A stretch of DNA of 64,000 nt from Streptomyces sp. B21-083. Its GTDB lineage: Bacteria; Actinomycetota; Actinomycetes; Streptomycetales; Streptomycetaceae. This document shows positions 4,924-35,491 of the stretch, one piece after another. The notes beneath the pieces were generated by a model. That model did not search any database. It saw nothing but the letters and a program-made list of their open reading frames with translations, and had not been told where the DNA came from. The position numbers and the translations under genes are program-made. The stretch lies in NCBI RefSeq assembly GCF_036898825.1, contig NZ_JARUND010000001.1, forward strand, positions 124,001 through 188,000, read 5' to 3'. Each line of letters opens with the position of its first letter. The first letter of the stretch is position 1.

Positions 4924-5520
4924 ATGGCGAAGTGGTTCGAACGTATGGCAGCGATTCCTGGTGTGCGGTTCACCGGAAGCCCTGGTGTCGTCCGCGAAGC
5001 GCTCGCAGAGGCCCGCGTCCGTCCGAAGGTGTCGTACGGCTCGCTGACGTGGCCGTCTGCTGAGGGCCGTACGTCGGCAACGCCGGCCAGTCGGCATGTG
5101 CCGGTGGAGGCGAGCGGAACGGACCTGGTCACCCGGGTCTGGGAGGCGCTGGAGCTTCCCGGTGGGGCGATGGACTACCACTTCGTCCTCCAAGGCGCGG
5201 TGGACCGCTTGTGGAGCGGCAGACGCTCCTACCCTGACGGGCTTGAGCTGCTTGAGGTGTTCGCGCTGCTGGACTTGGAGTTGATGGAGGCTGCCCCGCA
5301 GGCCGTCTCCTTTGACACCGGCTCCGTCCCGACCTCGTTCGTTCACGTGACGTCCGTTCCCCGGCTGGTGATGCTGCTGGAACGCGAAGGCGCCTTCACC
5401 GACGCCCTCGAAGTGGCGCGACGGCTGGCCCGTTTCGAGCAGGGTGAGGATGCGGTGGACCGTCTCTCGGGGAAGATCGGCGCACTGGCGGCCGAGACGA
5501 CGGCTGGCGGGGCGGCATGA
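4924..5520 (+). CDS. Hypothetical protein, first gene of helicase-TerD operon
   Basis: A 198-residue product from ATG at 4924, chosen because GCGGGGGGAC precedes it closely and the upstream in-frame codons read as non-coding. No recognised domain. The C-terminal 100 residues are predicted helical and leucine-rich (DGLELLEVFALLDLELMEAA; VPRLVMLLEREGAFTDALEV), resembling a repeat scaffold. The stop overlaps the next start as ATGA (5517-5520), so translation is coupled to the nuclease-helicase. It is probably an accessory or regulatory subunit of that system; no enzymatic motif is visible. Confidence 0.72.
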   Translation: MAKWFERMAAIPGVRFTGSPGVVREALAEARVRPKVSYGSLTWPSAEGRTSATPASRHVPVEASGTDLVTRVWEALELPGGAMDYHFVLQGAVDRLWSGRRSYPDGLELLEVFALLDLELMEAAPQAVSFDTGSVPTSFVHVTSVPRLVMLLEREGAFTDALEVARRLARFEQGEDAVDRLSGKIGALAAETTAGGAA

Positions 5521-7589
5521 GTGCCGGGCTGGAGCGGCTGCTCCCCTCGACGTCCTACCTGGAAGAGGCCTTCCTGCGCTGGGTGCTCACTCCAGCCGCG
5601 CAGCGGGGCATCGTGGCGCATGTGCACAGTCAGCATCCGGTGACGGTCAACGAGCGCACCTACCGGCTGGACTATCTGATCGCTGGCGAGTCGCTGCATC
5701 TGGCCGTGGAGTTGGACGGGTTCGCCTTCCACAGTGACCGTGCCGCCTTCACCTACGACCGGTTGCGGCAGAACGACCTGGCGGCCACAGGGCTGACGGT
5801 GCTGCGGTTTTCCTACGATGCGGTGCGCCTGGACACCGCACGCTGCGTCGCGCAGTTGCAGGCGATGCTGCGCCAGGATCCAGTGCTCTCGCCCCTGGTC
5901 ATCGCCGCGCCGCGCGTCGAGGTCCCGGAGATGGTGGGCGATCCCCTGCGGGCGGCCGATCCGCCTCGGGGTACCCGGTCACCGGATGATGAGGCCTACT
6001 TCGCCGGTGTGCGCGCTCAGGTGACCCGAGAGCCGTTGCGTACCTGCCAGGACGAGGCCCTGGCCGCGCTGGCCAACTACTACGCTTCCGGCGGTCGGCA
6101 TGCGGCCACGGTGATGGCGGTCGGGGCCGGCAAGACCGCGCTGGGGGTGGCGGCCGCGTTGTCCTTCACCAGGCGGCGAGCGCTGGTGGTGACTCCGGGC
6201 TCGGTCATCCGCGGCACCTTCGCCAAGGCACTCGACCCCGGTGTGCCGGGCAATGTCCTGTACGGACTGGCGGGCGGGCCCCTGCTGCCGGGTGCCCGGC
6301 CGCCGGCCACACTGGTGCTGGACGCAGAGGACGGGCAGATCAGCCAGGTGAGTCGGCAGCGGTTGCTGGCTGCGGACGTGCTGGTCACCAACTTCCATGC
6401 GCTGGGTACTGGCGACAAGGGCGGGGACCTGCTGGCCAAGCTGGAGCCGGGCGATGTCGACTTCATCGTTGTCGACGAGGCCCATATCGCGGCCAGCGCC
6501 TCCTATCAGCGGCTGTTCGCCCACTTCCGGGATGCGCGCACGCTGTTGATGTCGGCGTGCTTCCAGCGTCTGGACGGCAAGCCGATCGACGCCGATGTCG
6601 TCTACCGCTACCGGCTGGTGGACTCCATCGCGGACGGCTCGGCGAAGAACCTGCGCGTGCACCGGTTCGCCCCGGACGCGGCGACGACGGTGTACGAGGC
6701 GGTGTGGCCCGACGGGCGACGCGAGCAGATCACCGGCCGCGATGCGCTGTTGGCCGCGTTGGGCGACGAGCGGAGGATGGCCCGCATCACCGCGCAGTCC
6801 GATGCCTCGATCCGGCAGGTGATGATGGTGACGCGGGCCTGTCTGGATGCGCAGGCCAAGCTGCTGGCTCCGGTCAAACCCCGGGCGCTGTTTGCGGCGA
6901 TGGGTGAGGCCCACGCCCGGCAGATCGCCCGGATCGCCGAAGAGCACGGCATTCCCTGCGCCACGCTGCACCACAGCATGTCGGCGTCGTCGATCAAAGC
7001 CACCCGGCGGCGCTTCGAGTCGGACGCGGGTGATCTGCAGGGCATCGTGCAACTGCGGATGCTTGGCCAGGGCTACGACTTCCCGCCCATCACCGTGGTC
7101 GTGCCCGTGCGTCCCTATGGCAGTTTCGGCGAGTTCTACCAATTCATCGGACGTGGCGTGCGGGTGCTGCGCCAGCCGGGTCTGGCAGCCGATCAGCAGT
7201 ATCTGGATGTGGTCTGCCATGCCGAACTCGGCCTCGAGGACCATCTGGAGGCCATGTGCGCGGACAACGACATGGATCCCGCGCTGCTGCTCGGCGTTCC
7301 CTTGATCGACACCTCCACGCTGGAGGCGGACTTCGCCGGCGGTAACGGCCTCGGGGAAGGTGACTCTGACAGTGCGCTCCCGGGCGGAGTCGACGCGTTC
7401 GTGCTGTACGAGCAGGGGCGTGTTGAGCAGCGGGTCGTGCATGACCTGGACCGGGTGGAGGCCCGGCGGGCGGAGCGGGAAATGCAGCTGATGGCCCAGC
7501 GCTACGCCGTCTACGCGCAGAACACCGCGACCCCGATGCCGTTTGAGCAGTTCGTCGACTACATGCGGAGGCTGACCGGTGGCCAGTGA
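5517..7589 (+). CDS. DUF559-type nuclease fused to SF2 DEAH-box helicase
   Basis: 690 residues. Residues about 15-125 form a VSR/DUF559-like endonuclease: RLDYLIAGESLHLAVELDG (candidate Asp52 and Glu65), a histidine at 72, then a conserved strand TVLRFSYDAV. Residues about 185-600 are a superfamily 2 helicase: a Q-like segment RTCQDEAL, motif I AVGAGKT (201-207), motif II VVDEAH (318-323), motif III LLMSACF, and motif VI QFIGRGVRVLR. It probably unwinds or translocates on invading DNA while the nuclease cuts it. It overlaps the preceding gene by 4 bp and the following gene by 11 bp. The C-terminal 100 residues are less defined and coiled. Confidence 0.92.
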   Translation: MSAGLERLLPSTSYLEEAFLRWVLTPAAQRGIVAHVHSQHPVTVNERTYRLDYLIAGESLHLAVELDGFAFHSDRAAFTYDRLRQNDLAATGLTVLRFSYDAVRLDTARCVAQLQAMLRQDPVLSPLVIAAPRVEVPEMVGDPLRAADPPRGTRSPDDEAYFAGVRAQVTREPLRTCQDEALAALANYYASGGRHAATVMAVGAGKTALGVAAALSFTRRRALVVTPGSVIRGTFAKALDPGVPGNVLYGLAGGPLLPGARPPATLVLDAEDGQISQVSRQRLLAADVLVTNFHALGTGDKGGDLLAKLEPGDVDFIVVDEAHIAASASYQRLFAHFRDARTLLMSACFQRLDGKPIDADVVYRYRLVDSIADGSAKNLRVHRFAPDAATTVYEAVWPDGRREQITGRDALLAALGDERRMARITAQSDASIRQVMMVTRACLDAQAKLLAPVKPRALFAAMGEAHARQIARIAEEHGIPCATLHHSMSASSIKATRRRFESDAGDLQGIVQLRMLGQGYDFPPITVVVPVRPYGSFGEFYQFIGRGVRVLRQPGLAADQQYLDVVCHAELGLEDHLEAMCADNDMDPALLLGVPLIDTSTLEADFAGGNGLGEGDSDSALPGGVDAFVLYEQGRVEQRVVHDLDRVEARRAEREMQLMAQRYAVYAQNTATPMPFEQFVDYMRRLTGGQ

Positions 7590-10311
7590 ACAGCCGCGCT
7601 GGTGGCACCCCGCTATCGATGCCTCTCCCAAAGAGGCGCTTGCCCTGGAGGCAGCTGCCGGGCAGCAGCAAAGGTTCACTCAGCTCGACACACTCGCCGC
7701 CCGGCTGCTGACTACAGCGCTCAGGGGCCAGCTCATGGTCTCGGTGGTCCGCGGCATCGGACCGCAGGCCGCGGACAACGTCGAGGTGCTGGGGCTCAGC
7801 TCCCAGGAAAAGGCGTGGTGTGCTGAAACGTTCGGGGTGCCGGAGCAGCAGCGGCGTGGTGCCTGGTACCTGCCGCAGAAGCTGTCACTGAAAGCCGGGG
7901 CGGTGAACCTGCCCCAGCTGGTACGCGAACGCCCAGCCCATGCCCTGACGCTGGCCGCGGACGACTCGGCCAGCGTGAGCCTGGTGGACGGCGCAGCCGA
8001 CGCGGTGCTGCTGTGGGCAGTGCTGGTCCCGTTGTTCGAGACACTGATCGAACCGATCCGGGTTCGGGCAGCGGGGTCTGGGAAGACGACCGACGACCAG
8101 CGGCAACTGTGGTCCGGCATCGAGGAACGCTACCGGCTGCTGGGCATCGCCGGCGATGTTCTGGAGGCCTTCCGCTTCGGCGGCGGATGGCACCGGCTGG
8201 ACCGGCACGGTCAGCAGCACGCCCGCCTGCGCCTCCTGGACGCTTTGGCCTCCGTTGATCCGCTGCAGCTCGTCACCCGCCATCGCATCCTGCAACTGCA
8301 GGCGCTGATGGCCGGATTCGCCAAGAAATCCAAGACCGGCACCGCCCTCGCGCGCCGGGTTGCGACGCGCGCACTGCAGCCGGTTGTCTCCGGCTACTTC
8401 GCCGGCGACTGGCTGGCCACGCTGGACTACCTGCAGGCGCCGCCGCACCCGGACGAGGAGGTCATCACTGCGCTGCCCGAACCGCGCCTGTATGTGGGAA
8501 TGTCCGCCCAGGCGGCCGACATGGCAGCCGAGGCAGGCATCCCAGAGGACGAGATCCACGCGATGCTCGCGGCCTTCCTCGGGGGCCCGACCTCCCTCTC
8601 CCCCGTCGAAGAACGCGTGGCGGCTCTGCGCGAGTGGTGGACGGCCTTCGACCAGGCGCACGCCGTCCAAAGACCCGGCATGCGGCCGCTGTGGGGGCTC
8701 GTCGACGACAACATCATGGCGTTTTCCTGGCAGGACGAACACGGCTTCACCCAGCAGCTGTACCGGCAGGTGCTGCCCGCTTCCGTCAACGAGCAGGTGG
8801 ACCGGCTGTGGCACTCGGTGACCCTGCAGCGGCACGCCAAGAGCCTCGTCAGCAACCCCCGCCCCCACCAGCTGATGGCCGAAGCCCTCGGCCCCGCCCT
8901 GGAGTTCTGGCACGGCGTCGCGCTGACCGCCTGGTTCGTGTGCGAAGGCCCCTACTCCCGCGCTCCCCTGTCCGGTGTGGCCGACCACTACAGCCGCACC
9001 CTCACCGCGCTGACCGCCGCCAACTGCCCCGTCTCCCCGGACCTGTTCGAGGAACTGCGCATCGCTGAACAGCACCTGGGCCCTGAAGAGATGATCGTCA
9101 ACGAGCGCACAGAGCTCCCGGTGGACAGCACCATCGGCGCCTTCACCATGACGTCGACCATCAGCGGCGGCAGCCGCCGCGAAGGGTTCGAACGCATCCG
9201 CGACATCATCACCCGCCATCGTCGTGCCTGGACCGAGCAGCACCTCGACACCTACCTGCAGCAGCGCTGGCGCACCGCCTTGGAGGGCGTCGCCCAGGCG
9301 CACCACCGGTTCGTGGCCGCGAAGGGCTGTCCGCCCACCCTGATCCAGTTCGCCCAGTTCGCCACCGCCGCAGCCAACCAGTGGACCGGCGGCGACCTCG
9401 GCGCTCTCTACACCGCGATCGGGGAACCCGCACCCGCCCAGCAACTGCACCCGGTCCGTCTGCTGTCCGGTGACGGCTATGACGTCGCCCAGCGCGTCTA
9501 CACCGCGCTCGGCGGCACCGCGGTCGACAACGACCTGCGCATGAACCAGCCCGAAGAAGCCCGACGGCAATGGCAACTCAGCCGCCTAGCCGTCGAAAGT
9601 CTGCGATACCTGCAGCTCCACGAAGCGCTCGGACAGCCCCCGACGGGCAAACAGTTCGGCTCTTCACGCCTGGCCTGGCCATGGCCCGGAGAGGAAGCTG
9701 AGGGCTGGCCGCTTTTCCAGCACACCCTCGCCGCTCTGACCAATACCAGTCCACCCGCAAGTGAACCTGCCGCAGGGACGGCCGAGGCCGCCCCAAGCCT
9801 GCTGGACAACACCAAGCACGTGCTGGCCAAGGGAGCCAACGCCCCTCTGCGAACCGAATCGGTAGCGGTGCGCCTCATCACTACCGGCGTGCCAGTCGAT
9901 GTCTCTGCCGTACTCCTCACCAGCCACGGCAAAGTACGCAGCGACCACGACCTCGTCTTCTACAACCACCCGCACCACGACGGAGTCCGCACCAGCGGCA
10001 ACACGGTCACCGCAGATCTGCCCCACGTGCCCGACGACGTCCACACCGTGGCCGTCATCGCCAGCATCGACCTCGAAGCCCAACCCACCGCCTCCTTCGA
10101 CCAGAACACCACCTGGCACGTCGAGGTCACCCAACCCACTGGCGGCGGACTCGCCTTCACGCCTGCCCCCTTCGTCTCGGGTGAGACCGTCACCATCGCC
10201 ATGGAGATCTACCGGCACACTTCAGGCTGGAAAGCGCGTGCTGTCGGCCAGGGCTACGACACCGGGCTTGCCGGCCTGGCCGCGGACTACGGCATCAGCG
10301 TCGACCCCTGA
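7579..10311 (+). CDS. Large protein with C-terminal TerD domain
   Basis: 910 residues, starting GTG at 7579 inside the helicase gene. Residues 1-700 are helical and unrecognised. Residues about 754-910 match the TerD fold: DVSAVLLTSHGKVRSDHDLV then FYN, a DDVHTVAVIASI strand, AMEIYRHTSGWKARAVGQGY and a final YGISV. TerD domains bind calcium and occur in tellurite/stress and phage-related Ter systems; the usual paired acidic residues are only partly kept here (DVSA, DHD). Fusion of TerD to a long helical body and coupling to a helicase-nuclease suggests a membrane- or stress-linked sensor or scaffold for that enzyme. The fusion is seen directly; the role is inferred. Confidence 0.85.
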   Translation: MASEQPRWWHPAIDASPKEALALEAAAGQQQRFTQLDTLAARLLTTALRGQLMVSVVRGIGPQAADNVEVLGLSSQEKAWCAETFGVPEQQRRGAWYLPQKLSLKAGAVNLPQLVRERPAHALTLAADDSASVSLVDGAADAVLLWAVLVPLFETLIEPIRVRAAGSGKTTDDQRQLWSGIEERYRLLGIAGDVLEAFRFGGGWHRLDRHGQQHARLRLLDALASVDPLQLVTRHRILQLQALMAGFAKKSKTGTALARRVATRALQPVVSGYFAGDWLATLDYLQAPPHPDEEVITALPEPRLYVGMSAQAADMAAEAGIPEDEIHAMLAAFLGGPTSLSPVEERVAALREWWTAFDQAHAVQRPGMRPLWGLVDDNIMAFSWQDEHGFTQQLYRQVLPASVNEQVDRLWHSVTLQRHAKSLVSNPRPHQLMAEALGPALEFWHGVALTAWFVCEGPYSRAPLSGVADHYSRTLTALTAANCPVSPDLFEELRIAEQHLGPEEMIVNERTELPVDSTIGAFTMTSTISGGSRREGFERIRDIITRHRRAWTEQHLDTYLQQRWRTALEGVAQAHHRFVAAKGCPPTLIQFAQFATAAANQWTGGDLGALYTAIGEPAPAQQLHPVRLLSGDGYDVAQRVYTALGGTAVDNDLRMNQPEEARRQWQLSRLAVESLRYLQLHEALGQPPTGKQFGSSRLAWPWPGEEAEGWPLFQHTLAALTNTSPPASEPAAGTAEAAPSLLDNTKHVLAKGANAPLRTESVAVRLITTGVPVDVSAVLLTSHGKVRSDHDLVFYNHPHHDGVRTSGNTVTADLPHVPDDVHTVAVIASIDLEAQPTASFDQNTTWHVEVTQPTGGGLAFTPAPFVSGETVTIAMEIYRHTSGWKARAVGQGYDTGLAGLAADYGISVDP

Positions 10312-12001: not shown

Positions 12002-12544
12002 TCAGCGGCACCTTCCGGCCCCGAGTCCACACCCCTCCCCCGGCCCCGCGGACCACTCCACGCGAACTTCCCACACACCCAAGTGACGGTTGGTAAAGTC
12101 GGCGATCACCAGGTCCCAGGGGCCAAGTCCGTGCTGGTCGTGGGCGTCCCGGATGCGGTGCAGCGAGTCGTAGGTGGCGAACACGGTGACGGGGCCGCCC
12201 ACCCGCATCGCGCGGGCGATCGCCCGGGGGTAACGGGTCATGACCCCCTCGCGGGGCGCGAGTCCGCTCTGTCTCTGGCTCAGGGAGCACACGCCGAGCA
12301 CCAATCCCGGCTGGCCGGCCTCGCGCCAGCGGCGGATGGTCTGCGTCACCAGAGCTTTGGTCGGCATCAGCACCAGTACCGTGCCCTGCGGGGCCAGACG
12401 CCGTGCGGCCTGCTGCGCGATCAGGGTCTTGCCGGAGCCGCAGGCGGACACCACCGTCATGCGCGGCTGTCCCTCGGCGGCAGCGGCCTCGATCGCGGCG
12501 AGCGCCTCGGTCTGGTGACTGCGTAGCCTCAATACCGCCCCCAA
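12002..12544 (-). pseudogene. 5' fragment of an SF2 helicase, cut at the DEAH box
   Basis: The 180-residue frame begins MGAVLRLRSHQTEALAAIEA (Q-motif-like), then motif I SACGSGKTLIA, motif Ia VLVLMPTKALVTQT and motif Ib (VTVFATYDSL). It reaches the strand before motif II (WDLVIAD), but the expected EAH is replaced by FTNRHLGVWEVR and an unrelated glycine-rich tail. The junction lies near base 12085 and the rest of the helicase is missing, so a deletion joined it to the DNA upstream of the recombinase. It was probably part of the same lost element. Confidence 0.8.
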
Positions 12545-14094: not shown

Positions 14095-14754
14095 TCACTT
14101 CGGATGTGCGGGTTGCGAGCAGGTCGTAGAGGTTGGGCATGTCGGCTCCGTGGTATCGGGATGGGTGGTGCTGTGCAGAGTGCACAGCACTACGGTGAAG
14201 AAGATCAGAGCAGAGGCAATCGCGAGCATCGCTGCATCCCGGAAGACGGTGAGGAAAGTCCTGACGGTCTCTTCGCCGATGCTGACGTACTGGACGTATC
14301 CAGCGGCAAGTTGCTTCTGGACGGGCGGGGTCCCCTGAGCCGTCAGGGCGGTGTCCATCCGGCCCAGGACCGCTCGTCCGGTCAGAACCGTGGCGGCTCC
14401 GGCAACCGCCAGGACGGCAAGGAGGCATGACAACGCCCAGGCCGCGATCAGCACCCAGTGTTCGGAGAGCACCGCCTGTGACCTGGCGGTGATGGCAGCG
14501 GTCAGGGCAAGGGAGACCGTGGCCAAAGCGCCGGCCCGATTGCGGATGCGGTCCAGGTCTGTTGCTTGCCGGTCGAATTGGCGGCGGCCTTCTTCGATCA
14601 GCAGGGTGAGATCCTGCGGCTGAAGGTGGTCGAGGCTGCCGGTGCAGGGGGCGGGGTCGGCGAAGGTGGGCAGCGGTCGCCCTGGGTGCAGCACTGCCGC
14701 GCAGTACAGGAGGTAGAGGCGGGGTTCGGCGAACGGGCCGGTGACCGTCGGCAT
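14095..14754 (-). CDS. Three-helix membrane protein, last gene of ATP-grasp operon
   Basis: 219 residues. A cytoplasmic N-terminal part contains a charged helix (LTLLIEEGRRQFDRQATDLD). Three hydrophobic helices follow at about 73-92, 99-125 and 185-207, with an amphipathic segment between the second and third. The layout, a charged helix leading into a membrane hairpin, recalls the SLATT-like and 2TM effectors of nucleotide-triggered defence systems, but no diagnostic motif is visible. It starts one base after the stop of the ATP-grasp gene, so the two are co-translated. It may be a membrane-disrupting effector or an anchor for the ligase. Role inferred only from context. Confidence 0.75.
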   Translation of the reverse strand: MPTVTGPFAEPRLYLLYCAAVLHPGRPLPTFADPAPCTGSLDHLQPQDLTLLIEEGRRQFDRQATDLDRIRNRAGALATVSLALTAAITARSQAVLSEHWVLIAAWALSCLLAVLAVAGAATVLTGRAVLGRMDTALTAQGTPPVQKQLAAGYVQYVSIGEETVRTFLTVFRDAAMLAIASALIFFTVVLCTLHSTTHPDTTEPTCPTSTTCSQPAHPK

Positions 14755-14755
14755 G

Positions 14756-15772
14756 TCAGTCGTCCTTCAGCCAGCCGGCCAGGCGGTCAGCGATCTGAGC
14801 GGTCATGCTGTCGGGCAGGAAAAGCCACTGTCCGCCGGGGTTGAGGTCGAGGAAGGCGGGCCCGGCCGCATCAACAATCCAGTCCTGGCATGTGAAGCCG
14901 GTTCCCAGCCGCTCAGCCAGTTCGAGCGCGGCCCGTTCTGTTTCTGGCCACCGGGAGGAAGGACGGAAGGCGTGGTGCGCCGTCATGGACTGGCGCCAGT
15001 CCAACGGGAGCCCGTCGGCGTCGAGTTCGGCGCTCCAGGCTCGGTCGCCGACGGTGACGATCCGCAGGTGGGTGCGGGCGGTGAGGTGTTCCTGCGCCAG
15101 GAAGGGGGCGTCGAGCAGGTCCGTGCCGGCCAGGTCGGCGGCGGTCACGGTCTGGGCATGCACGACGCGCTCGTGGCCGTCGGCATCAGTGAAGTTGCCC
15201 GGCCCCAGCGGTTTGAGGACGAACCGCTCGCCGAGGACGCCGGCCAGGGCCGAGGGGTTGGCGCTGATGACGGTGTTGGGGGTGCGCAATCCTGCCGCGC
15301 GGGCCGCCCGGTACTGAACGATTTTGTTCTCCGCGGCAAAGAGCGCGTCGACGTGGCACAGCCAGGTGAGTCCGTCATCCCGCAGCAGGGTGGCCAGAAG
15401 CGCCGTTCGCGCGGCGAGCCGGGCAGCGGCGTGGCTGCCCAGAACGGCGCCCGTGTCCCATCCCGCGGGAGCAAGGCGTCGGATCCAGCCGCGGGCGGGG
15501 TGTTGTACACGCAAGCAGACTGGTTCGCCGGTTCGGTCGAGCAGCGTGCTGTACTGGAGATCAAGATCACGCAGCGTGCTGGACAGCGAGGCGGCGTCAA
15601 CGGCGACGGTGCCGCGCCGGGGAAGCCGGTCAAGGACTGCGGCCACGTGCGGGTCTGCCGGGTCGCCGACGAGCAGAATGGACAGAGGTCTGTCCGCAGG
15701 GGACGGCAAGCCGGAGGGGCAACTGTCTTCCTGGGACGAGGACGATCTCACAGAGCAATCGTATATGCGCAC
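14756..15772 (-). CDS. ATP-grasp ligase of the MvdD/TgmB type
   Basis: 338 residues from GTG at 15772; GTG at 15751 is an alternative. It shows the grasp-ligase order: an N-terminal Rossmann-like part (LSILLVGDPADPHVAAVLD), the ENKIVQYRAARAAGLRTPNT linker, the lysine strand RFVLKPLGPGNF, then FLAQEHL, a TCQDWIVD strand and the metal-binding FLDLNPGGQWLF near the end. This form is closest to ligases that make side-chain ester or amide links in small peptides (graspetides). The gene upstream codes for a 49-residue peptide and the one downstream for a membrane protein, so peptide modification within the operon is a reasonable hypothesis. Substrate unproven. Confidence 0.85.
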   Translation of the reverse strand: MRIYDCSVRSSSSQEDSCPSGLPSPADRPLSILLVGDPADPHVAAVLDRLPRRGTVAVDAASLSSTLRDLDLQYSTLLDRTGEPVCLRVQHPARGWIRRLAPAGWDTGAVLGSHAAARLAARTALLATLLRDDGLTWLCHVDALFAAENKIVQYRAARAAGLRTPNTVISANPSALAGVLGERFVLKPLGPGNFTDADGHERVVHAQTVTAADLAGTDLLDAPFLAQEHLTARTHLRIVTVGDRAWSAELDADGLPLDWRQSMTAHHAFRPSSRWPETERAALELAERLGTGFTCQDWIVDAAGPAFLDLNPGGQWLFLPDSMTAQIADRLAGWLKDD

Positions 15773-15810
15773 GCCATTATGCTTGCTGCCTGTGCCGACG
15801 AGGTGGCTGA

Positions 15811-15960
15811 TCAGCGCCGCCCGAAGCCGGGCGGCTGACTCGAGAGCTCCAGAGCCGTGAGCAGTTCCGCCGGTGCTGAGAACTGCCGCGGATACAGCTT
15901 GTCCCCCAACGTGTCGATGGTGGAGAGGTCAGTTGGTGCCAAAACAATGGCCCGCCCCAT
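15811..15960 (-). CDS. 49-residue peptide, candidate ATP-grasp substrate
   Basis: ATG at 15960, 16 bp after the stop of the 1,020-residue gene; stop at 15811, 38 bp before the ATP-grasp start. The peptide begins MGRAIVLAPTDLSTIDTLGD and ends SSQPPGFGRR. It is rich in Thr, Ser, Asp, Glu and Lys, the residues used for macrocyclic links by grasp ligases, but it lacks the repeated core motif of known graspetides. The ribosome site is weak (GAAGCGG). It may instead be a small adaptor. Support comes from position, sensible codon use and the match to operon spacing; there is no homology I can name. Confidence 0.5.
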   Translation of the reverse strand: MGRAIVLAPTDLSTIDTLGDKLYPRQFSAPAELLTALELSSQPPGFGRR

Positions 15961-15976
15961 GCCGCTTCGGTGATCG

Positions 15977-18900
15977 TCACCAGGTGAACGGGGCGGTGTG
16001 CTCGACGTCGTCCGTCCAGTACCCGTAACGGTCACCCAGGACTGCCAACAGTGCCCGTGGATCGAGAGGGCCACGGCGGACAACAAGGCCAAGGGCGCGT
16101 GCCGTGCTCACAGCGGCCATGGACAGATGCGACCGCAGAGTACGTTCCGTGAAGGCTTCCAGAGGAACAGGCGGATCTTCGGGGTGCTCGGGTGCCTGCA
16201 TGACGCCGAGGATCTGGGCCCGGCGATCCTCGGAATCGCCACGCGACGGGCTCAGCCCCTGCTGTTGGGCGCGATGGTTTCCGACCACGTTGGCGATGGC
16301 GGTCAGCAGGTGCCAGTCGCGCCACCCCTCATCCCGCAGTTGCCTGGCCGTACGCCGGAAGTCGGGGTCCGCGGTCAGCCGGGGAAGGGTGTGACGCACG
16401 CTCGGGAGCATGACGGCGTAGCGGTTGCGGACGGTGTCGAGGGCTCTCTGATGCTCGTAGCCGGGGCCGGGGCCGTTCCGGGCCGGGAGGGTGGCTGTCT
16501 TCGCCGGGCCGCGGGGCGTGCCGGCCCCGACGGCTGGATCGGTCAGTGCCGCCATCGCCTGGTAGTCGTCGGGCGAGAGGAAGGCGGCCAGTTCGTCATA
16601 GGGGCGGGCGACGAAGACCTTGTGCCCCAGCCCGCTCGCGAACGTCTGCTCGATGAGTTCCATGAAGGCCTCGTGGGGCAGCAGCGACTGGGAGAGCACC
16701 ACCCGGGTCAGGGCGGCAATGAGGTGGGAAGGCTCTGCGTGAAGATCCGCAGGGTCGGCCGCGGGCAGACCCACGGTCCACCGGTTGGTGTCCGGGTCGG
16801 TGACCTGTTCGCAGGCTGCGGGACGATCCCTTGGCGCGGTGGTGTCCACGCGGATCTCGGCCGTGAGACGGCCGGGCAGGAACACGGGGTCGTGCAGGGC
16901 GAGTTCGGCGAGAAGTACCTGGAGTGCCGCGGTATAGCGTTCGGCGGCGAGTACCGACGGGCGGTCGTTGGGGCAGGTGATCTCCCAGTCGACGCCGAGT
17001 GCATTCCAGGTGTAGCGGCGTGTGGGACCGGCGTCGCTGAAGGGCCGTCCCACGCCTTGTTCGTCGGCTTCGGCGGTGTACGACTCTTCGGTCGCCGCGG
17101 GGGCGCCGGCGGTCGGGGCGAGCATGTCGTCGAGGATCGTGTTGATGCCCACCGAGCCGGTGATCGCGCGGAGCACGGGGACAAAGCCGGGCCGCACTTC
17201 GGTGGCTGCGCGCAGCGTGAGCGCCTGGTCGGCCATGGTCTCCCAGACGTACGGGTAGCGGTCGTGGTTGTAGGGCTCGTCGCAGTAGGCGTCCTGTGCC
17301 GTGAGGCCGATGCAGAACAGGCGGGTGGCGGAGATCCAGTTTCCGGCCTGCCGGTCGTAGTGGGCGGCGAGGATGATGCCGCGGGGGATGAAACAGTTGA
17401 GTTCCGGGGCGGGTGCGGACTTCGCGGCGGTAGCGGCTGCGAGCGCGTACTGCTTGGCGGCGATGGACAGGCCGAGTTCGCTGTAGAGGCGCGCGCACAG
17501 CAGCAGCATGATCAGGCCGCCCTCGAGGGTGTCGCCGAGCAGCCAGTTGGTCTTGGCCTCGTGGATCTCCTGGAGTGCTTGCGGGATGCGGCCGCCCTTG
17601 ATCAGGGCGTGGCCTCGGGTCTGGGCGCGTTCGCCTCGTGCCGCCTGGCCGTTGACCCGGTCGGTTGCCGCGTCGAGCAGGTCACGGACCTCCCGGTACA
17701 GAGGGTGGTCCACCAGAACCGGGGTGAGGTAGTCGAAGAGGTCGGCGGTGTGTTCGATGGGGAACAGCGGCGCGTTGTCCAAGTGGCGGCCCAGCCGGAG
17801 CAGCGTGTGCATGCCGGTGTCGAGGTCCGTGAGCGGCGGCGCCGTCTGCAGAGCAGGCACCTGCTCACCGGCTTCCGCCGCTTCGAGGACGCGTGCGGTG
17901 ACCTCTGCGACGCTCGGCAGGTCCTCGGGTACCACGTGGAGGTCTGCGGTCATGTCGGTGTGCAGGGCCAGGCGGGCCCGCATGGCCAGCAGATGGGCCA
18001 TCGCGTTGGGCGGCGGGTCCGCGTCCAGCAGGCGGTCGATCTTGTCTGCCAGCAGCCGCTGCCAGCCGGACAGGTCCTCTGTGGTCAGGGCGGTGAGGTC
18101 GCGGACCAGTGCCCCGAACCCGTACTGGAGGAGCACGACGGCGTCCTCGAGGATTCCGGGGTCGGTGAGGGTGTCGTCGGCGGTGAGGGTGTCGAAGAAG
18201 TCGCGGGCCAGCTGGTCCGTCGGACGCATCTCGCCGAGTCCTCGCAGGGTTGCCACGACGATCTCGTAGCGGGCCCGCAGCGCGATGTCCTCCCCCGCGG
18301 CGGCGTCCAGCAGGGCGCGGGCGTGGTCGATCCATTCCGGCAGGTCGGCCCGGGCCTCGTCGTGGAAGGTGGCGTGGCGCAGCGGGCCCCGCAGGTCCAC
18401 CAGGTCGCCCAGGGTGCGGCCGGGCTCGTCGTTTGCCTGCCACCGCTGGCGGGCTTCGGTATACCAGTCGGGCAGTTCACCGGCGCCTTCCGGGCGGGGC
18501 GGAGCAAGGTCGGAGGGCAGGTGAAGGTACTGGACAGCGAGGTAGAACAGGTCGTAGTCGGCAAGGTGGAGGGCGAGGGCGGCGGCGTCCAAGATCTCCA
18601 GTTCCACCTGGTGTGTCCGGGCGGCTTCGTCGATCAGGTCGTGCCGCTTCCTGGTGGGTAGGGCGGTCACGGTGAAGTAGATGACGCGGTCAACGGGTGT
18701 GCCCTGCCCGCAGATCGAGGCGAGGTCCTTTCGGATCTTGCCCGGGACACCGGTGCTCTGGATGGTGCAGGCCATCACCACCCGCTGGGTGGAGGCCAGT
18801 GCAACGAAGCAGGAGGTGTTGGGCAATTCGCGGGGGATGTTGGTCCAGTGGCTTTCTGCGTCCCGGCCCTGGTCGCCGCCGCTGCTGACGGGGCCGGTGG

Positions 18901-19039
18901 CCGGGAGCAGGTTGCTGGTGATCCTCCGGCGTGCCAGGCCCAGGCACAGTGCCTCGAACTCGTGATGGCTGTTGCTTTCGCCGAGGGTGCCCAAGGCGAA
19001 GCGGATACGCTTCTCAAGCTGGACGGCATCATCGCTCAC
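15977..19039 (-). CDS. REase-like N-terminus with helical repeats, first gene of ATP-grasp operon
   Basis: 1,020 residues from ATG at 19039. Residues about 20-120 look like an Mrr-type restriction fold: HEFEALCLGLARRRI, then PVSSGGDQGRDAES with a candidate Asp, then a strand VVMACTIQST. The usual QxK is QST, so cleavage activity is uncertain. Residues about 190-650 are alpha-helical with TPR-like spacing. A final domain (about 700-1020) contains FMELIEQTFASGLGHKVFVA and a WRDWHLLTAIANVVGNH block. It is followed by the peptide, ATP-grasp and membrane genes on the same strand with short gaps, so it probably acts as the recognition or nuclease part of that system. Confidence 0.8.
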   Translation of the reverse strand: MSDDAVQLEKRIRFALGTLGESNSHHEFEALCLGLARRRITSNLLPATGPVSSGGDQGRDAESHWTNIPRELPNTSCFVALASTQRVVMACTIQSTGVPGKIRKDLASICGQGTPVDRVIYFTVTALPTRKRHDLIDEAARTHQVELEILDAAALALHLADYDLFYLAVQYLHLPSDLAPPRPEGAGELPDWYTEARQRWQANDEPGRTLGDLVDLRGPLRHATFHDEARADLPEWIDHARALLDAAAGEDIALRARYEIVVATLRGLGEMRPTDQLARDFFDTLTADDTLTDPGILEDAVVLLQYGFGALVRDLTALTTEDLSGWQRLLADKIDRLLDADPPPNAMAHLLAMRARLALHTDMTADLHVVPEDLPSVAEVTARVLEAAEAGEQVPALQTAPPLTDLDTGMHTLLRLGRHLDNAPLFPIEHTADLFDYLTPVLVDHPLYREVRDLLDAATDRVNGQAARGERAQTRGHALIKGGRIPQALQEIHEAKTNWLLGDTLEGGLIMLLLCARLYSELGLSIAAKQYALAAATAAKSAPAPELNCFIPRGIILAAHYDRQAGNWISATRLFCIGLTAQDAYCDEPYNHDRYPYVWETMADQALTLRAATEVRPGFVPVLRAITGSVGINTILDDMLAPTAGAPAATEESYTAEADEQGVGRPFSDAGPTRRYTWNALGVDWEITCPNDRPSVLAAERYTAALQVLLAELALHDPVFLPGRLTAEIRVDTTAPRDRPAACEQVTDPDTNRWTVGLPAADPADLHAEPSHLIAALTRVVLSQSLLPHEAFMELIEQTFASGLGHKVFVARPYDELAAFLSPDDYQAMAALTDPAVGAGTPRGPAKTATLPARNGPGPGYEHQRALDTVRNRYAVMLPSVRHTLPRLTADPDFRRTARQLRDEGWRDWHLLTAIANVVGNHRAQQQGLSPSRGDSEDRRAQILGVMQAPEHPEDPPVPLEAFTERTLRSHLSMAAVSTARALGLVVRRGPLDPRALLAVLGDRYGYWTDDVEHTAPFTW

Positions 19040-19248
19040 GTCGTTCCCCCTGGTCTCGCTGCCGCACTCTTACGCACGCCCAAGTGTCCAGCACCCCACT
19101 GACATCTCGGGGGCCCCGCCCGCGTTGGCGGGTACGCGTGCCGTGAGGGTCAGTTCAGCAACCCGGCCCGCGCTCGCGCTCCAATCAGGAGGTACTGGCG
19201 CCCCGTGTGGGCAGGGCAGGTACGCACGCGCTGCGCGAGGATGGGGAA

Positions 19249-19647
19249 ATGTCCGACGACCCCACTGCTCCTGGTGCGCACCCGGTACAGATCCCCGCGC
19301 GGATACACGCGGTGGGACCGGGCTGGCGGCAACTGCTGGAACATCTGCATGAACAGATCTGCACTGAATTCCCCGGCTACCGTCTCCTCGACCTCAAAGA
19401 GAAGCTCGGCGGCCTGCGTGTCCATGTAGACAGGCCAGCGGGCAGCGGCGACGCCCTGCGGGCGCTGATCGCCTCCGCGGAAGCGGAGTCGGAGCGCACC
19501 TGTGAGTTCTGCGGCGCACCCGGCCGTATCCGCACCCGCGATGACCAGCCGGGAGGATGGCGCAAAGCCGCATGCAGCACCTGCCATACCGCCTGGTCGG
19601 CGCGTCGAATCATGATCGTCCAGGGTGTCGTGCGTGAGCACGGGTGA
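19249..19647 (+). CDS. Small zinc-binding protein of unknown function
   Basis: 132 residues from ATG 19249, preceded by GAGGATGGGGAA. It contains GPGWRQLLEHLHEQICTEFP and the conserved EKLGGLRVHVD segment, then a zinc ribbon with CEFC (about residue 87) and CSTC (about 112). Proteins of this pattern are common in Streptomyces and are often annotated only as hypothetical. It stands alone on the plus strand between two minus-strand conflict operons; no partner is evident. Confidence 0.75.
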   Translation: MSDDPTAPGAHPVQIPARIHAVGPGWRQLLEHLHEQICTEFPGYRLLDLKEKLGGLRVHVDRPAGSGDALRALIASAEAESERTCEFCGAPGRIRTRDDQPGGWRKAACSTCHTAWSARRIMIVQGVVREHG

Positions 19648-19797
19648 GACAACCAACCCGGCGGTGTACCGGACGGACGCGTGTGGGCCTGTCCTGCAAG
19701 CAGGAACGTGATCAACTGCTCGCTGCGCCTGCCGGAGTCGGCGTTGGACGTAGTCGTTGTCGACCACCAACAATGCCGCGCCCTGACGTACGACGCT

Positions 19798-30072: not shown

Positions 30073-30229
30073 ATGCAGCCGATTGAACGGCGGTCGGCGC
30101 TCCGCTCTTGCCCCGGCCGGTCACCACGGCCGCCGGATTCCGTGCCCACCGCCACGTGGGCGGCGAGGTTAGGGTGGCTGCGGTGGCCCGGGGTGGGCAC
30201 CGCGTGAACAAGGCGCGATGGAGGTGAGC

Positions 30230-33200
30230 ATGGGGTTGCGCCCGACCCACCTCGGCTACGCCTACCAGGACCTGCTCACCGCGCTACGCCTGGTAGACCT
30301 TGCGGTGGGACGCACGACATCGGTGCTGGTCGACACGAAGCTGTTCACCGGTGACCGGTTCGACGACATCACCTGCGAGTGGGGCACCAGCAGCCGCGAA
30401 CGGCTGCAGATCAAGCACACAGACCATGACCGCGCGTTGTCGCTGGAGAGTTTCACGAAGGATAACCGAGGCCTACGTCTGGATCTTCTCTTCTCCTCCA
30501 TGGAACACGACCTCACCTCGCATCCCGGTGCCTCGCACCGCCTCGTGGTACGCGACACGGAGCCGGAGGATCCCGAGCTGACCCGGGTGCTGCGGCCGGT
30601 CCACACGAACGCCGATCCCGGGCCTGCACTGCACGGCCTGAGCAGCAAGCGGTTCCGATTCGACGCCGCCGCGCTGCGAGCACACGCTCCGTGGAAGGAG
30701 ATGCTCGCCAAGGTCGATGACGACCTGCTCAGCCGCGCCTGCGCCTCCCTGGTCGTCGACACGAATCTTCCGGCATGCTCGCTCAACATCCGAGAGCCCG
30801 GACCAGCTGAAGCGGCCTTGCTGCACCGCATCACCGAAGAACTCGGTGCCGGACGGCCGCCGAACCGGCACCGCACGCCCGAGGAAGTGGCACTGACCCT
30901 GATCGAGACGGCCAAAGCGGCTCGCAGCCGGGCGGGAACGGTGACGGTCGAGGACCTGCTTCCCCGTCTGAGCCTGGAAGTCGACTTCGGAGCGGTCCGT
31001 GAGGGCCACCCCGTGGACCACGCCACCGAGGTGCACCGTCCCACGGTGCTCACGGGCGTAATCGCGGCCGTGAAGGGCGCCGCGCAGCAGGGGGGTGTCG
31101 TGGTGGTCACCGGCGCTCCCGGCATCGGCAAGTCGTGGCTGTGTGAGCAGCTCGGGGAGGCGCTGCGGGAGACCTGGCTGGCGGTGCGACATCACTGCTG
31201 GCTCGGCGCCGCGGACATCGACCGGGAACAGCGTGTGCTGACCGAAGTCGTGATCGGCAGCCTGCTCAAGCAGCTGGAGGTGGCCGTTCCGGAGGCGTTG
31301 GCGCAGGTTAGGCCCCGCTACGCGGCCACTCCGGAGACTCTCGCGGCCACGGTCACGGCCGCGCGCGGCCTGGCTCCGGACCGGCCGATCGCGCTGATCG
31401 TGGACGGCATCGACCACGTCAGCCGGGTTCTTGGATACACCGCCGGCAGCGCCTTTCGTGCACAGGTGGACCCGGCGGCCCAACTCGTCGCGGACCTCAC
31501 TGCCCTCGAGCTGCCGCCTGGTGTCGTGCTCGTCCTGGCCAGCCAGCCCGGCCCTCACCTCGATTCCGTCGACGACGGTGCCTTCCGACTCATCGTTGCC
31601 CCACTCAACCGCGGCGAACTGCATGCTCTGGCGGAGCGTCTGGGCGTGCTGGTGGCCCTGGCGTCGTCGCCCGCCGGTGAGGGGCTGGATCCCGCTTCGC
31701 GGGCGGAGGCCGCGGTTGCCCTGATCGAGGAACGCTCACGCGGCAATGCTCTGTATGCCACCTATCTGTGCCGGCAGGCCGTCGGTCCCCTCCCGGCCCT
31801 GGGAGCGGCGCCCGCGCCGGATGGCACCGGCGATCCTCTGGAGAGGCTGCGGACCATTCCGTCGTCGGCGCACGACCTCGACGACTACTACGCCTATCTG
31901 CTGGCCGGTCTGAGCCCCGGGCAGCGCTCCGCTGTCAGCATGCTCGCGGTCTGCGACTTCGCCGTGACCGCACAGGAACTCGAGGAGATTTTCCCGCTGC
32001 CCGGCATGCAACTCGGTGCCGCGCTGACCAGCGTGGCACCGATCATCGCGCAGCAGCCGGGCATCGGTGGACTGAAGATCCACCATGAGAGTTTCAGCCG
32101 CTTCATCCGCCGGATCGACGGCGACGGCGGGTGGGTCGATCAGGTCCGGTCCCAGGCCGTCGACTGGTTGTCCCGGCGGGGCTTCTTCACCGATCCCCGC
32201 GCCTTCCGGCATCTGCCCGAACTGCTGGCCGTCTTGGGTCGCGACGACGAACTCGCTCTGCTGATCGGGCCCGATTTCCTCGCCCGTGCGATTGCCGGGT
32301 TGCAGCCCCCGCAGGCCGTCGTGCACACCCTGGCTGTTGCCGCGCGGCGGGCGGCGGCCCGCAGTGACTGGCCCACGCTGGTGCGCTGCATCGAACTGAG
32401 CCGGGCGCGGGCGAACTACGAGGACGAAGGCCTGCCGGGTTCCCTGGTGCCGTATGCGGATGTGCTGGTGGAGCTGGTGGGAGCCGACCGCTTGGCGGCA
32501 AGCCTGATGTATGAGGGTGTGCCCACGATGCCGGCTCGGTGGGGCCTGCAACTGTGTGCGGCGGTCGACCGGGCCGGTTACGCCGCCCCGTGGGAGGCCT
32601 ACCTGACGGCCTGGGACGACGTACGCAACGACGAACGGGTCCACTACGGTTCCCAGAGCGACGAGTCGGTGGCCTTGGCGGAGCTGCGCGGACGGATCCG
32701 ATTGCCGGCCCGGGCCAGCGATGATGTCGAGCCCGAGCAGGCCCCACGCACGCTCGCTCAGCGGGTGGCCCGATTCCTCAACCAGGAGGCTCTGACATCG
32801 CCCGAGCTGGCCCTCGATGTGCTGCTGGACTGTCTCGGTTTCGTGCCGCTGTTGGACAGTACCGAGCACATCGAGCGGCCCGACCGGCGCACTGCCCTTC
32901 TGCTGCATCTTGCCGACGCCCGCGACCGTGCACACGGCACGCTGCCGTCGGCGCGCACGCTGGCCACGGCGGCATGGGCCAGCGGACCGTGCGACCCGCG
33001 GCGCTTGCTCCGCCATGGTCTGATGGTGGCGGACCTGGCTGATGAGGTCTTCTCCCCGAACATCACCACTGTTCTCACAAAGGCGACGCTCGAGGTGCTG
33101 ACCGACCGTCCCGGCGGTCTGTCGGGGCCGGTGAGCAGGTGGCTTGCGCTACTGGCCGTGGCCCACGCGGCCGACCCACAGACGCCCACCCGGCTGCTCC

Positions 33201-35491
33201 CTCATCTGGAGGGAGACGGCTTCTACCGTGCCTGGCTGCGCTTTGCCATTGCCACCCTCGGCCTGCGCCAGGACGTCGAGGCGGGCAAGCTCCCGGCCGC
33301 GACCGCCTCCGCCACCGCCCGCGTGGCGCTCGAGCAACTGGCCCAGCACACGGCCCCCTTCACCGGCCGTCCCAGCGCCAGTGACCTGATCGACATTTAC
33401 CAGCTCGTGCGTCAGGTCCTGCACGACGCCGTCGCCCTGCTGCACGGCGACGACGTCGCGCTGGGCATTGCAGCCCTGCAAGCCGTCAGCGAAGGAACCA
33501 CCACCTCTCTGATGGGCATGGCCGGAACCGGCCCTCTGATCACCACCGACCTGCTGTCCTTGCTCGCTGCGAGCGTCGGCCAGCCCGGGGTCGACGTGGC
33601 GCGCGAACTGATGCGCGCCCTGCGCGCGGCGCACGCCGGGTACCGTGCGTTGTATACGGAGAGCGCCGACTTCGAACTTGAGATGGCCCGCGTGAGTCTG
33701 GCCTGCGGCGACCCGCAGGAAGCGCAGCGGTGCTGGGACCGCGCCGCCCGCTACATGGGCGCCTACGGCAGCCACAAGGACATCACCATCGAGGAGCTGC
33801 TGGATCCGCTGCCCCAGCTCATGCAGGCCGATCCCGTCCAGGCGCGGGTGCGGCTGGCACGTACACAACCGCTGGTGTATCTCGTCGCGCACGGCACCGA
33901 CGGGCGGGGCACCGGAGGATTTCCCAGCCGCTGGTGGCAGTTGCTGGCCCGTCTAGACCCGTGGGCTGCCGCACAGTTGGGCGCCCAGGTGCTGCTGACG
34001 GAGCCTGGGCTGCCCGATCACCGGGTGGCTACCGCTCACCAGCAACTGCTGGCGACCCAAGCGAACACGGCAGACCCCGTCATCCTCGCCGCGGTGCGCA
34101 TCGCGGCAGGAGGCGCCGGCCACAACATCAAGGGGGACATCGCCCTGCTCGGCAGGCTCGCCGAACTGCCGGCCGACGACGCGGCCCGCTCAGTGCGCCT
34201 GCTTCCGGTGCTCGCCAACGCCATCACCTCCACCTACGACGACCAGACGCTGGCCGCCGCACCGCACGCAGCCGGGAACGAGCCCGCCGCAGTGCTCACC
34301 GCCGCAGCACACCGCTGCGGCGGTGAGGGCCCGCACTGGGTCCCCCGGCCCGTGCCGACCAAGACCTCCCGCGACTGGTCGAGCCACAGGCGCCCTGCCA
34401 CCCATGCCTATCTCCACGCCCAGCAGCGCCCCACCCTGCCCCCGGGCGCTGCCGGCGCGCTGGCCGCGATCCGCGACCGCAGCAGCAAGGCATACAGCGA
34501 CCCGCCGGGTCCCCGGTGGTCACGGGACGCCCTGGCCAACGCGGTCGGATGGCGGCTGCTGGAGATCCTCCACCGTCAGGGAGCCGACGCCGTCACCCAG
34601 CTACTGCACCAAATCCCCGAGGAGATGAACCTCTCCAATCCCCTGGAGCTCCTCGCCGACATCGCCGTCGGCCTGCGCCTGCGCCACGACACCGACCCCG
34701 GCGTCTTCGGCCCGCTCGCCGCAACAGCCGGCATGCTCGCCTACACCAAGACTCGAGGCGGCGGCGGATGGCGCGTCTTCGCCGGCAGCGACCGACTGGA
34801 TCTGTGGCAGCAGGCGCACGCAGCCGACACCACCACCGCAGCCCGCATCCTCGCAGACCAGGTGGCCCAAGCCATCGCCAACCCAACCCACAACCGCACC
34901 ACCGGCGTCAGTCAGGCGCTGGTCTCGGCCTTTGCGATCCAGTCCCCGGATACCTCCCAGCACTCCCCCGCCAGCGCGCTGGCCTGCTGGGACGCGGCGT
35001 ACGACGTCATCGCGCACCGGCTGCCGGGCGACGCCGGCCTCGGCCATGGGGCCTACCACCCACAGCCGGGGCCGGCCACGCAACACGACATTGACACCGC
35101 GCTGTGCCGGCTCTTCCTGGCCACCGTCGCCCTGCCTGAACGCGGCGACAAGCGCCGCGCCTTGATCGCAGCAACCGCTCTCCTGGCCAGCCGTCCCGCC
35201 CAGGCCCAGGCCGCATTCGCGCACGTCTTCTCCTTCGACCTGGGCGCTGGCCCGCTGACCTGGCTCATGTCCGTCCTGCACAGCCACCTGCCCGAGGGCC
35301 CCCTCGATGCCAGCCTACGAGAGCAGCTCGAGGCCCTGTGTGGCAGCGGCATGCTGTCCGTACGCGCCGAAGCTGCTGCAGTCCTCACCCGCGCGGGATG
35401 CCAGCCACCCTCCCCTCCGGCGACCGCCGCCCATCCGACACTCGCACGCGCCATCTCCGCCGCGCTCTCCAGCACCGAGGGCAGCACATGA
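30230..35491 (+). CDS. Avs-like STAND ATPase with Cap4/DUF4297-like nuclease domain
   Basis: 1,753 residues from ATG 30230, chosen over ATG 30218 because GGAGGTGAGC precedes it. Residues 1-200 follow the Cap4/DUF4297 dsDNA-nuclease pattern: GYAYQDLLTALRL, DRFDDITCEWG (Asp45/46), then LQIKHTD (Gln60-x-Lys62). The STAND ATPase follows with Walker A GAPGIGKS (295-302) and Walker B IALIVDGIDHV (387-397). The remaining 1,200 residues are a long helical sensor array. A nuclease, STAND core and giant C-terminal sensor is the layout of Avs antiphage proteins, which tetramerise on phage terminase or portal proteins and cut DNA. The next gene overlaps as ATGA. Subtype not assignable by eye. Confidence 0.85.
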   Translation: MGLRPTHLGYAYQDLLTALRLVDLAVGRTTSVLVDTKLFTGDRFDDITCEWGTSSRERLQIKHTDHDRALSLESFTKDNRGLRLDLLFSSMEHDLTSHPGASHRLVVRDTEPEDPELTRVLRPVHTNADPGPALHGLSSKRFRFDAAALRAHAPWKEMLAKVDDDLLSRACASLVVDTNLPACSLNIREPGPAEAALLHRITEELGAGRPPNRHRTPEEVALTLIETAKAARSRAGTVTVEDLLPRLSLEVDFGAVREGHPVDHATEVHRPTVLTGVIAAVKGAAQQGGVVVVTGAPGIGKSWLCEQLGEALRETWLAVRHHCWLGAADIDREQRVLTEVVIGSLLKQLEVAVPEALAQVRPRYAATPETLAATVTAARGLAPDRPIALIVDGIDHVSRVLGYTAGSAFRAQVDPAAQLVADLTALELPPGVVLVLASQPGPHLDSVDDGAFRLIVAPLNRGELHALAERLGVLVALASSPAGEGLDPASRAEAAVALIEERSRGNALYATYLCRQAVGPLPALGAAPAPDGTGDPLERLRTIPSSAHDLDDYYAYLLAGLSPGQRSAVSMLAVCDFAVTAQELEEIFPLPGMQLGAALTSVAPIIAQQPGIGGLKIHHESFSRFIRRIDGDGGWVDQVRSQAVDWLSRRGFFTDPRAFRHLPELLAVLGRDDELALLIGPDFLARAIAGLQPPQAVVHTLAVAARRAAARSDWPTLVRCIELSRARANYEDEGLPGSLVPYADVLVELVGADRLAASLMYEGVPTMPARWGLQLCAAVDRAGYAAPWEAYLTAWDDVRNDERVHYGSQSDESVALAELRGRIRLPARASDDVEPEQAPRTLAQRVARFLNQEALTSPELALDVLLDCLGFVPLLDSTEHIERPDRRTALLLHLADARDRAHGTLPSARTLATAAWASGPCDPRRLLRHGLMVADLADEVFSPNITTVLTKATLEVLTDRPGGLSGPVSRWLALLAVAHAADPQTPTRLLPHLEGDGFYRAWLRFAIATLGLRQDVEAGKLPAATASATARVALEQLAQHTAPFTGRPSASDLIDIYQLVRQVLHDAVALLHGDDVALGIAALQAVSEGTTTSLMGMAGTGPLITTDLLSLLAASVGQPGVDVARELMRALRAAHAGYRALYTESADFELEMARVSLACGDPQEAQRCWDRAARYMGAYGSHKDITIEELLDPLPQLMQADPVQARVRLARTQPLVYLVAHGTDGRGTGGFPSRWWQLLARLDPWAAAQLGAQVLLTEPGLPDHRVATAHQQLLATQANTADPVILAAVRIAAGGAGHNIKGDIALLGRLAELPADDAARSVRLLPVLANAITSTYDDQTLAAAPHAAGNEPAAVLTAAAHRCGGEGPHWVPRPVPTKTSRDWSSHRRPATHAYLHAQQRPTLPPGAAGALAAIRDRSSKAYSDPPGPRWSRDALANAVGWRLLEILHRQGADAVTQLLHQIPEEMNLSNPLELLADIAVGLRLRHDTDPGVFGPLAATAGMLAYTKTRGGGGWRVFAGSDRLDLWQQAHAADTTTAARILADQVAQAIANPTHNRTTGVSQALVSAFAIQSPDTSQHSPASALACWDAAYDVIAHRLPGDAGLGHGAYHPQPGPATQHDIDTALCRLFLATVALPERGDKRRALIAATALLASRPAQAQAAFAHVFSFDLGAGPLTWLMSVLHSHLPEGPLDASLREQLEALCGSGMLSVRAEAAAVLTRAGCQPPSPPATAAHPTLARAISAALSSTEGST

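Follow-up and report, generated by a model that had tools for sequence, protein, structure and literature searches.

A probable three-gene graspetide cassette with its own membrane partner in Streptomyces sp. B21-083

A 64,000-nucleotide stretch of DNA from Streptomyces sp. B21-083 (hereafter the window; positions 124001-188000 of contig C1, from the 10.5-Mb genome G000) carries adjoining genes for a small Thr/Glu/Asp-rich peptide, an ATP-grasp ligase, and a membrane protein. We consider it probable, at roughly 0.78, that these genes are a graspetide cassette with its own membrane partner, an apparent new subfamily, and that the large gene upstream (here BigP) is separate. On the sequence comparisons below, the conserved unit most likely comprises precursor, ligase, and membrane protein, with BigP as a neighbor.

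An earlier note on this locus had described four minus-strand open reading frames (ORFs) as one operon, in which BigP would be a sensor, a 49-residue peptide the substrate of the ligase, and the membrane protein an effector. The four ORFs lie as that note described, separated by gaps of 16, 38, and 1 bp. Coding is supported for the three long ones by third-position guanine-cytosine content (the 49-aa frame falls under the 80-aa floor of this analysis), and Pfam gave no match for any of the four at E up to 1. The proposal that they act as one unit fared less well: the grouping of ligase and membrane gene stands, the 49-aa substrate most likely does not, since its frame is broken in the one relative that could be compared (an outcome that the earlier note had itself named as refuting) and precursors of another type occur elsewhere, and BigP and the cassette each occur without the other.

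The cassette and its conservation

Besides the window, we compared 17 ligase loci from a genome-contig scan with the ligase alignment, one Streptomyces plasmid locus, and the locus of a second Streptomyces genome, G007 (locus L028). These loci are not all independent, since G007 is a near relative of the window and locus L027 a near copy of L022.

The ligase profile points to the peptide-modifying branch of the ATP-grasp enzymes. Against NCBIfam, the ligase matched TIGR04187 (ATP-grasp ribosomal peptide maturase) with 101 bits, MvdC with 69, and MvdD with 60; because all three scores lie below the curated cut-offs, we assign it to no named subfamily. The RimK model scored far worse (E 0.008). 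Among proteins of solved structure, the best match was AMdnB (7m4s, 96 bits), followed by 5ig8 (82), 5ig9 (68), CdnC (61), 9bou (51), and, weakly, 7drm (24). The segments ENK, KPLGPG, HLR.VTV, and DLNPGGQWLFLP are largely kept in the 26 rows of the ligase alignment (A1). By these comparisons the ligase is a member of the graspetide superfamily that includes MvdC, MvdD, and tgmB, in agreement with the likeness proposed earlier. Its true start is likely the second GTG (15751), since a relative has a stop codon just upstream of it.

Within this superfamily, in a midpoint-rooted tree with some long branches, the 43 rows of the ligase family form one side of a fully supported split (100/100) and 26 other graspetide-type matches from Streptomyces genomes the other. 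The closest named relatives are from Streptomyces. Profile searches of 392 genomes of the genus gave matches at 1e-20 in 57, among which only the window's genome and G007 exceeded 500 bits and so scored as this family, the next-best score being 104 bits. Ligase matches occurred in 11 plasmid records, one of which covers at least 80%. Well away from this locus, the window's genome also has another ATP-grasp peptide-ligase-like gene (G000:C1:4179159-4179818; L002, L074) and a third, weaker match at 658832-659476 (L003). The ligase of locus L023, from a metagenome-assembled genome labelled Terriglobia, groups with Acidimicrobiia, reflecting either a mislabelled contig or transfer.

A fifth ORF, absent from the earlier note, likely encodes the precursor of the peptide that this ligase would modify (MPNLYDLLATRTSEVSDTAASTPQPPNPGTVYTASVETIDNDCVGTLLHTLNI; Table 1). 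It shares 46 nt with the 3' end of the membrane gene, and its ATG is preceded by CGGAG. Between the window and G007 there are zero indels in its 162 nt and the core NPGTVYTASVETIDND is identical; across the complete reading frame there are 10 codon differences that alter the amino acid and 6 that leave it unchanged. Reading the ORFs around the other ligases likewise revealed small Thr/Glu/Asp-rich peptides. We described their cores by the pattern T.{1,2}[TS].{2,4}E[TS].[DE].[DE], which was written after the peptides had been seen. Counted from 1000 nt before to 1300 nt after each ligase (63 kb in total), it was present in 19 of 20 loci, with 36 matches (four overlapping) that all lay on the ligase strand; the remaining 290 kb held a single match. 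At the DNA level, the pattern occurs once in the window's own genome. Viral contigs contained pattern matches, yet no relative of the ligase or of BigP.

Among 26 precursors from 19 loci (L027 left out), all carry an L[YF] leader motif, found by script in 25 and by eye in one; in the scripted ones it lies 21-42 residues ahead of the first core-like match. By eye, precursors contain one to three cores and their genes occur in tandem up to three times. Locus L017 has three precursors in a row, and L011 and L012 each have one ahead of the ligase and another behind the membrane gene. Many cores fit the arrangement T..T...E..D.D, and by eye there is more than one core per precursor in 7 of 19 loci (L015, L016, L018, L019, L020, L023, and L024); the window precursor has a single core. 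A ligase of this superfamily thus lies near a small peptide with an N-terminal leader motif and a core of Thr/Ser and Glu/Asp residues, as in known graspetide loci.

The membrane gene is tied to the ligase, as the earlier note had supposed. Of the 18 loci fetched, 13 have a homolog of it next to the ligase by tblastn, and ORF reading added three (L022, L023, and L027). The gene stands behind the ligase, with stop and start codons overlapping in several loci, and six ligase/membrane pairs carry neighboring locus tags. The structure model (mean predicted local distance difference test score, pLDDT, 80) has three long helices at residues 46-90, 100-125, and 143-195, and eight residues are invariant in 15 aligned rows: E55, R57, Q63, R73, A74, Y153, G160, and T163. 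Pfam matches of these 15 members are scattered and weak. The protein's appearance prompted us to consider it as a SLATT or PycTM protein; Pfam gave no support for this, as neither was among the 12 families listed for the 15 proteins (E up to 10).

Table 1. Features of the locus in the window
Feature	Coordinates	Strand	Basis or remark
Likely graspetide precursor gene, 53 aa	13979-14140	-	Leader NLYDLL, core TVYTASVETIDND; conservation, pattern matches
Membrane partner, 219 aa	14095-14754	-	Structure model, alignment, homologs beside ligases
ATP-grasp peptide ligase of graspetide synthetase type, 338 aa with the first GTG as start	14756-15772	-	Profiles, tree
49-aa ORF, most likely not a gene	15811-15960	-	tblastn among fetched loci, comparison with G007
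BigP, 1020 aa, REase-like (restriction endonuclease-like) N-terminus and TPR-like solenoid	15977-19039	-	Apparently a separate module

The 49-residue frame

The peptide formerly proposed as the substrate is most likely not a gene. Its 49 residues are counted from an ATG; a start at a TTG further upstream would lengthen the same open frame to 93 aa. The comparison was made within the fetched loci rather than a protein database, and tblastn there matched only copies of the same genome. In G007, the sole fetched relative with a comparable stretch, four indels interrupt the region, two of 3 nt and two of 1 nt (one of the latter at the ATG), and it is less identical than its flanks, while the adjoining genes align cleanly. 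We therefore rejected this frame as the precursor: it is not preserved in the single relative that could be compared, and the likely precursors elsewhere are of the other type.

BigP occurs apart from the cassette

The structure model of BigP (pLDDT 83) combines an REase-like N-terminus, a helical solenoid at about residues 190-660, and an alpha/beta C-terminal part. Conserved N-terminal residues (E29, GGD56..RD60.E62, T92xQ94, and K101; alignment A3) look catalytic and were weighed against the acidic and Lys pattern in the alpha/beta core of PD-(D/E)xK restriction endonucleases. Strand-helix-strand elements are modelled in this region, but residues 39-85 fall below pLDDT 50; no restriction-endonuclease family is among the Pfam matches of BigP, and several of its better Foldseek matches are TPR proteins. 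Its sequence would most naturally be read as that of a defense gene. The copies on the S. laculatispora and M. gordonae plasmids have CHAT, HEPN, restriction, and Shedu genes nearby. BigP matches occurred in 11 plasmid records, eight of which cover at least 80%.

The distributions of BigP and the cassette differ. No BigP was detected by tblastn in the 18 ligase loci outside G000 and G007, some of which are short upstream (about 1 kb in L013), and no ligase was found in four BigP loci holding about 6 to 11 kb per side (G110, G132, and one plasmid each from S. laculatispora and M. gordonae). When 295 sampled genomes of the genus were searched at E 1e-40, the ligase was present in two and BigP in five (two only as fragments), with both genes together only in the window's own genome. 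Homologs of the ligase and the membrane protein fell on equal-sized contigs 18 times among the matches listed (once on the window's own contig), and BigP did so with neither; this comparison used the best 120 of 387 ligase matches, the best 120 of 378 BigP matches (without the window's own contig), and all 119 membrane matches, and shifted controls gave 0 or 1.

G007 retains a short BigP remnant, with about the last 80 residues matching, beside an intact cassette. The nucleotide match between the two genomes spans a TniQ-like gene, the precursor, the membrane gene, and the ligase and ends inside BigP, where the break adjoins a transposase-like frame (IS3-type by eye). We thus rejected BigP as an obligate component, and its proposed function as the sensor of the same system is unsupported. 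Instead, BigP appears from these comparisons to be an independent, defense-like restriction/TPR gene that sits upstream by chance. A stretch upstream of BigP (19150-19773 / 19207-19647) is conserved together with it in G110 (L029, 84% over 15980-19648), and a divergent plus-strand frame there (146 aa, with CxxC motifs) may be the real gene.

Genomic surroundings

By its gene content the window is a mobile island rich in conflict functions: beside transposition genes it holds genes of the REase-helicase, TerD, STAND NTPase, and caspase-AAA kinds. Tn7-like transposition genes lie in a row on the plus strand (43851-48935), with TnsA-like, TnsB-like (rve/Mu C-terminal), and TniB-like ATPase genes spanning 43851-47793. 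An REase_MTES-helicase gene is followed by a 910-aa protein with a terminal TerD domain (5517-10311), and a 1083-aa protein joins a caspase domain to an ATPase-like region (59934-63185). The window (30218-35491, 1757 aa) and locus L015 (5653-12144, 2164 aa) each encode a large STAND-type protein, and by eye the N-termini of the two resemble each other; in L015 the gene adjoins the cassette in an unrelated metagenome-assembled genome. A 180-aa helicase fragment is found at 12002-12544, and G007 has a 785-aa helicase-like frame by the same cassette (L028 6345-8702). Two Nocardioides species share 20.9-kb stretches with the cassette that are 96% identical (L022 and L027), which suggests likely recent transfer; in L022, the shared stretch has a TrwC relaxase match.

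Genes for DrmA and DrmB of DISARM start within about 4 kb of the cassette in two loci (L020 3776-9336 and L023 10895-16392). With 10 hand-picked proteins examined, 2 of 17 loci is a minimum. We compared these loci with 17 other Streptomyces ligase loci as a control. ORFs at the control loci also matched PADLOC at 1e-10, with no DrmA or DrmB in the 25 of 26 families shown. The two sides were scanned unlike each other: on the cassette side, 10 proteins were picked by hand among 116 ORFs of at least 150 aa (cassette ORFs included, L027 left out) and scanned at E 1e-5; the control side comprised 90 ORFs of at least 300 aa at E 1e-10, picked by eye and script from 186 ORFs. A count of 2 in 17 loci, compared with none seen in the 17 controls, is too small to prove anything. 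An SMC/PtuA-like match in L016 (2e-18) was not counted because control loci show like matches (mad3 in 4 and single PtuA models in 1 of the 90 proteins). In the window itself, the only PADLOC match among the four ORFs was that of the membrane protein to Unk_04 at E 0.23, the ligase having none. The control gave no support for the unproven defense role of the cassette.

Proposed mechanism and alternative explanations

From the observed gene content, conservation, placement, and separate occurrence, we infer the following course. Precursor, ligase, and membrane protein would be expressed together, and the ligase would dock the NLYDLL helix at the N-terminus of the precursor. It would then phosphorylate Glu/Asp side chains of the C-terminal core, to be attacked by core Thr/Ser side chains, and each core (T-x-x-T...ETxDxD) would end with at least two side-chain ester rings in a presumed linkage pattern. 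The modified peptide would act at or through the membrane partner, which most likely moves the peptide out of the cell or protects the producer.

Several observations weigh against this interpretation. The cassette model does not account for removal of the leader. Three long helices, as modelled, would be few for a transporter, and searches for the fold in the PDB returned only helical bundles of other kinds; the method is uninformative for long helices, and the outcome should not be read as a sign of a new fold. No membrane gene was seen in L021 or L032 by tblastn or ORF reading. The core pattern missed L014, which has a weaker core, VETTDEA (ETTDEA), and six precursors compared with Pfam and NCBIfam gave no relevant match. 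Finally, BigP and the cassette may have a recent tie within Streptomyces, which is conceivable because the cassette lies downstream of BigP in both the window and G007.

It is rather unlikely that the same genes form an intracellular conflict module of anti-phage or toxin-antitoxin-like type, in which a cross-linked peptide silences a three-helix membrane-disrupting effector or triggers it upon infection. The modelled membrane protein, with long polar helices running into membrane helices, looks unlike a transporter-like bundle, and the mobile, defense-rich DNA, the nearby DrmA and DrmB genes, and the relaxase-bearing stretch shared by the two Nocardioides would all suit such a module. Against it stand the lack of meaningful PADLOC or SLATT/PycTM matches for the membrane protein, the PADLOC matches of the control loci, and the absence of a ligase relative from the viral contigs. 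A more specific form of this idea, that a graspetide controls a cell-suicide or defense switch by binding and gating the three-helix membrane effector, spread on mobile islands near DISARM and other defense genes, seems unlikely; none of the literature matches listed places graspetides in such a switch, and nothing in them points to graspetides with phage defense, SLATT, or membrane proteins.

The ligase might alternatively tag or polymerize something else in the manner of RimK, with the ETxDxD peptides being regulators or partners rather than substrates. Some relatives are named 'RimK family alpha-L-glutamate ligase', but the peptide-maturase models score much better than RimK, and a leader followed by cores rich in Thr, Glu, and Asp, often in several copies, is the pattern of graspetides (PMC8939145), making this very unlikely. 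The four-gene operon is scarcely credible: the common strand, short gaps, type of ligase, and BigP C-terminal remnant upstream of the ligase in G007 speak for it, but the indels in the 49-aa frame and the separate occurrence of BigP and cassette, including a cut BigP beside an intact cassette in G007, speak strongly against it.

Relation to known graspetides and implications

Interpreted as a graspetide cassette, the locus has the thuringinin-type systems among its closest known counterparts. PMC8939145 describes these (groups 3/5/6 of Lee et al., as cited there; precursor cluster 13) as having a like order of Thr, Glu, and Asp in the core and, as in some of the present loci, repeats in one precursor served by one ATP-grasp ligase. 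An uncharacterized membrane protein (cluster 18) is specific for thuringinin loci, mostly those without a known transporter, and is guessed to act in peptide transport (PMC8939145). In contrast, the fetched cassette loci are mostly from Actinomycetota, and any kinship of ligase, leader, and membrane protein with the thuringinin ones is putative. The exact thuringinin motif is reportedly TxxTxxxExxDxD.

Microviridin-type synthetases (AMdnB, 7m4s; CdnC, 7mgv; and 5ig8/5ig9, named 'ATP grasp ligase') share the ligase superfamily and the conserved segments, but the cassette has one ligase, a leader with LYDLL rather than PFFARFL, and a core without TxKxPSD (PMC7823629). The tgmB-type maturases and graspimiditides (fuscimiditide) of Actinomycetota are alike in that TIGR04187 is the nearest NCBIfam model; they differ in that the cassette ligases split from the 26 Streptomyces rows, which are provisionally labelled tgm-type. 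Fuscimiditide has a methyltransferase (PMC12291112), whereas the window's four ORFs include none and a membrane partner instead. Some of the loci may already be among the 43 groups (24 earlier and 19 new, from 21,584 predicted graspetides) reported in PMC13097080.

According to PMC8939145, all graspetides characterized so far are protease inhibitors and the role of most predicted ones is open. The correction of the precursor matters in this context, since the earlier call would have sent a bench test to the wrong peptide. As a minimal cassette of precursor, ligase, and membrane protein that extends from Streptomyces to uncultured Acidimicrobiia, the system would allow product, membrane partner, and role to be tested together.

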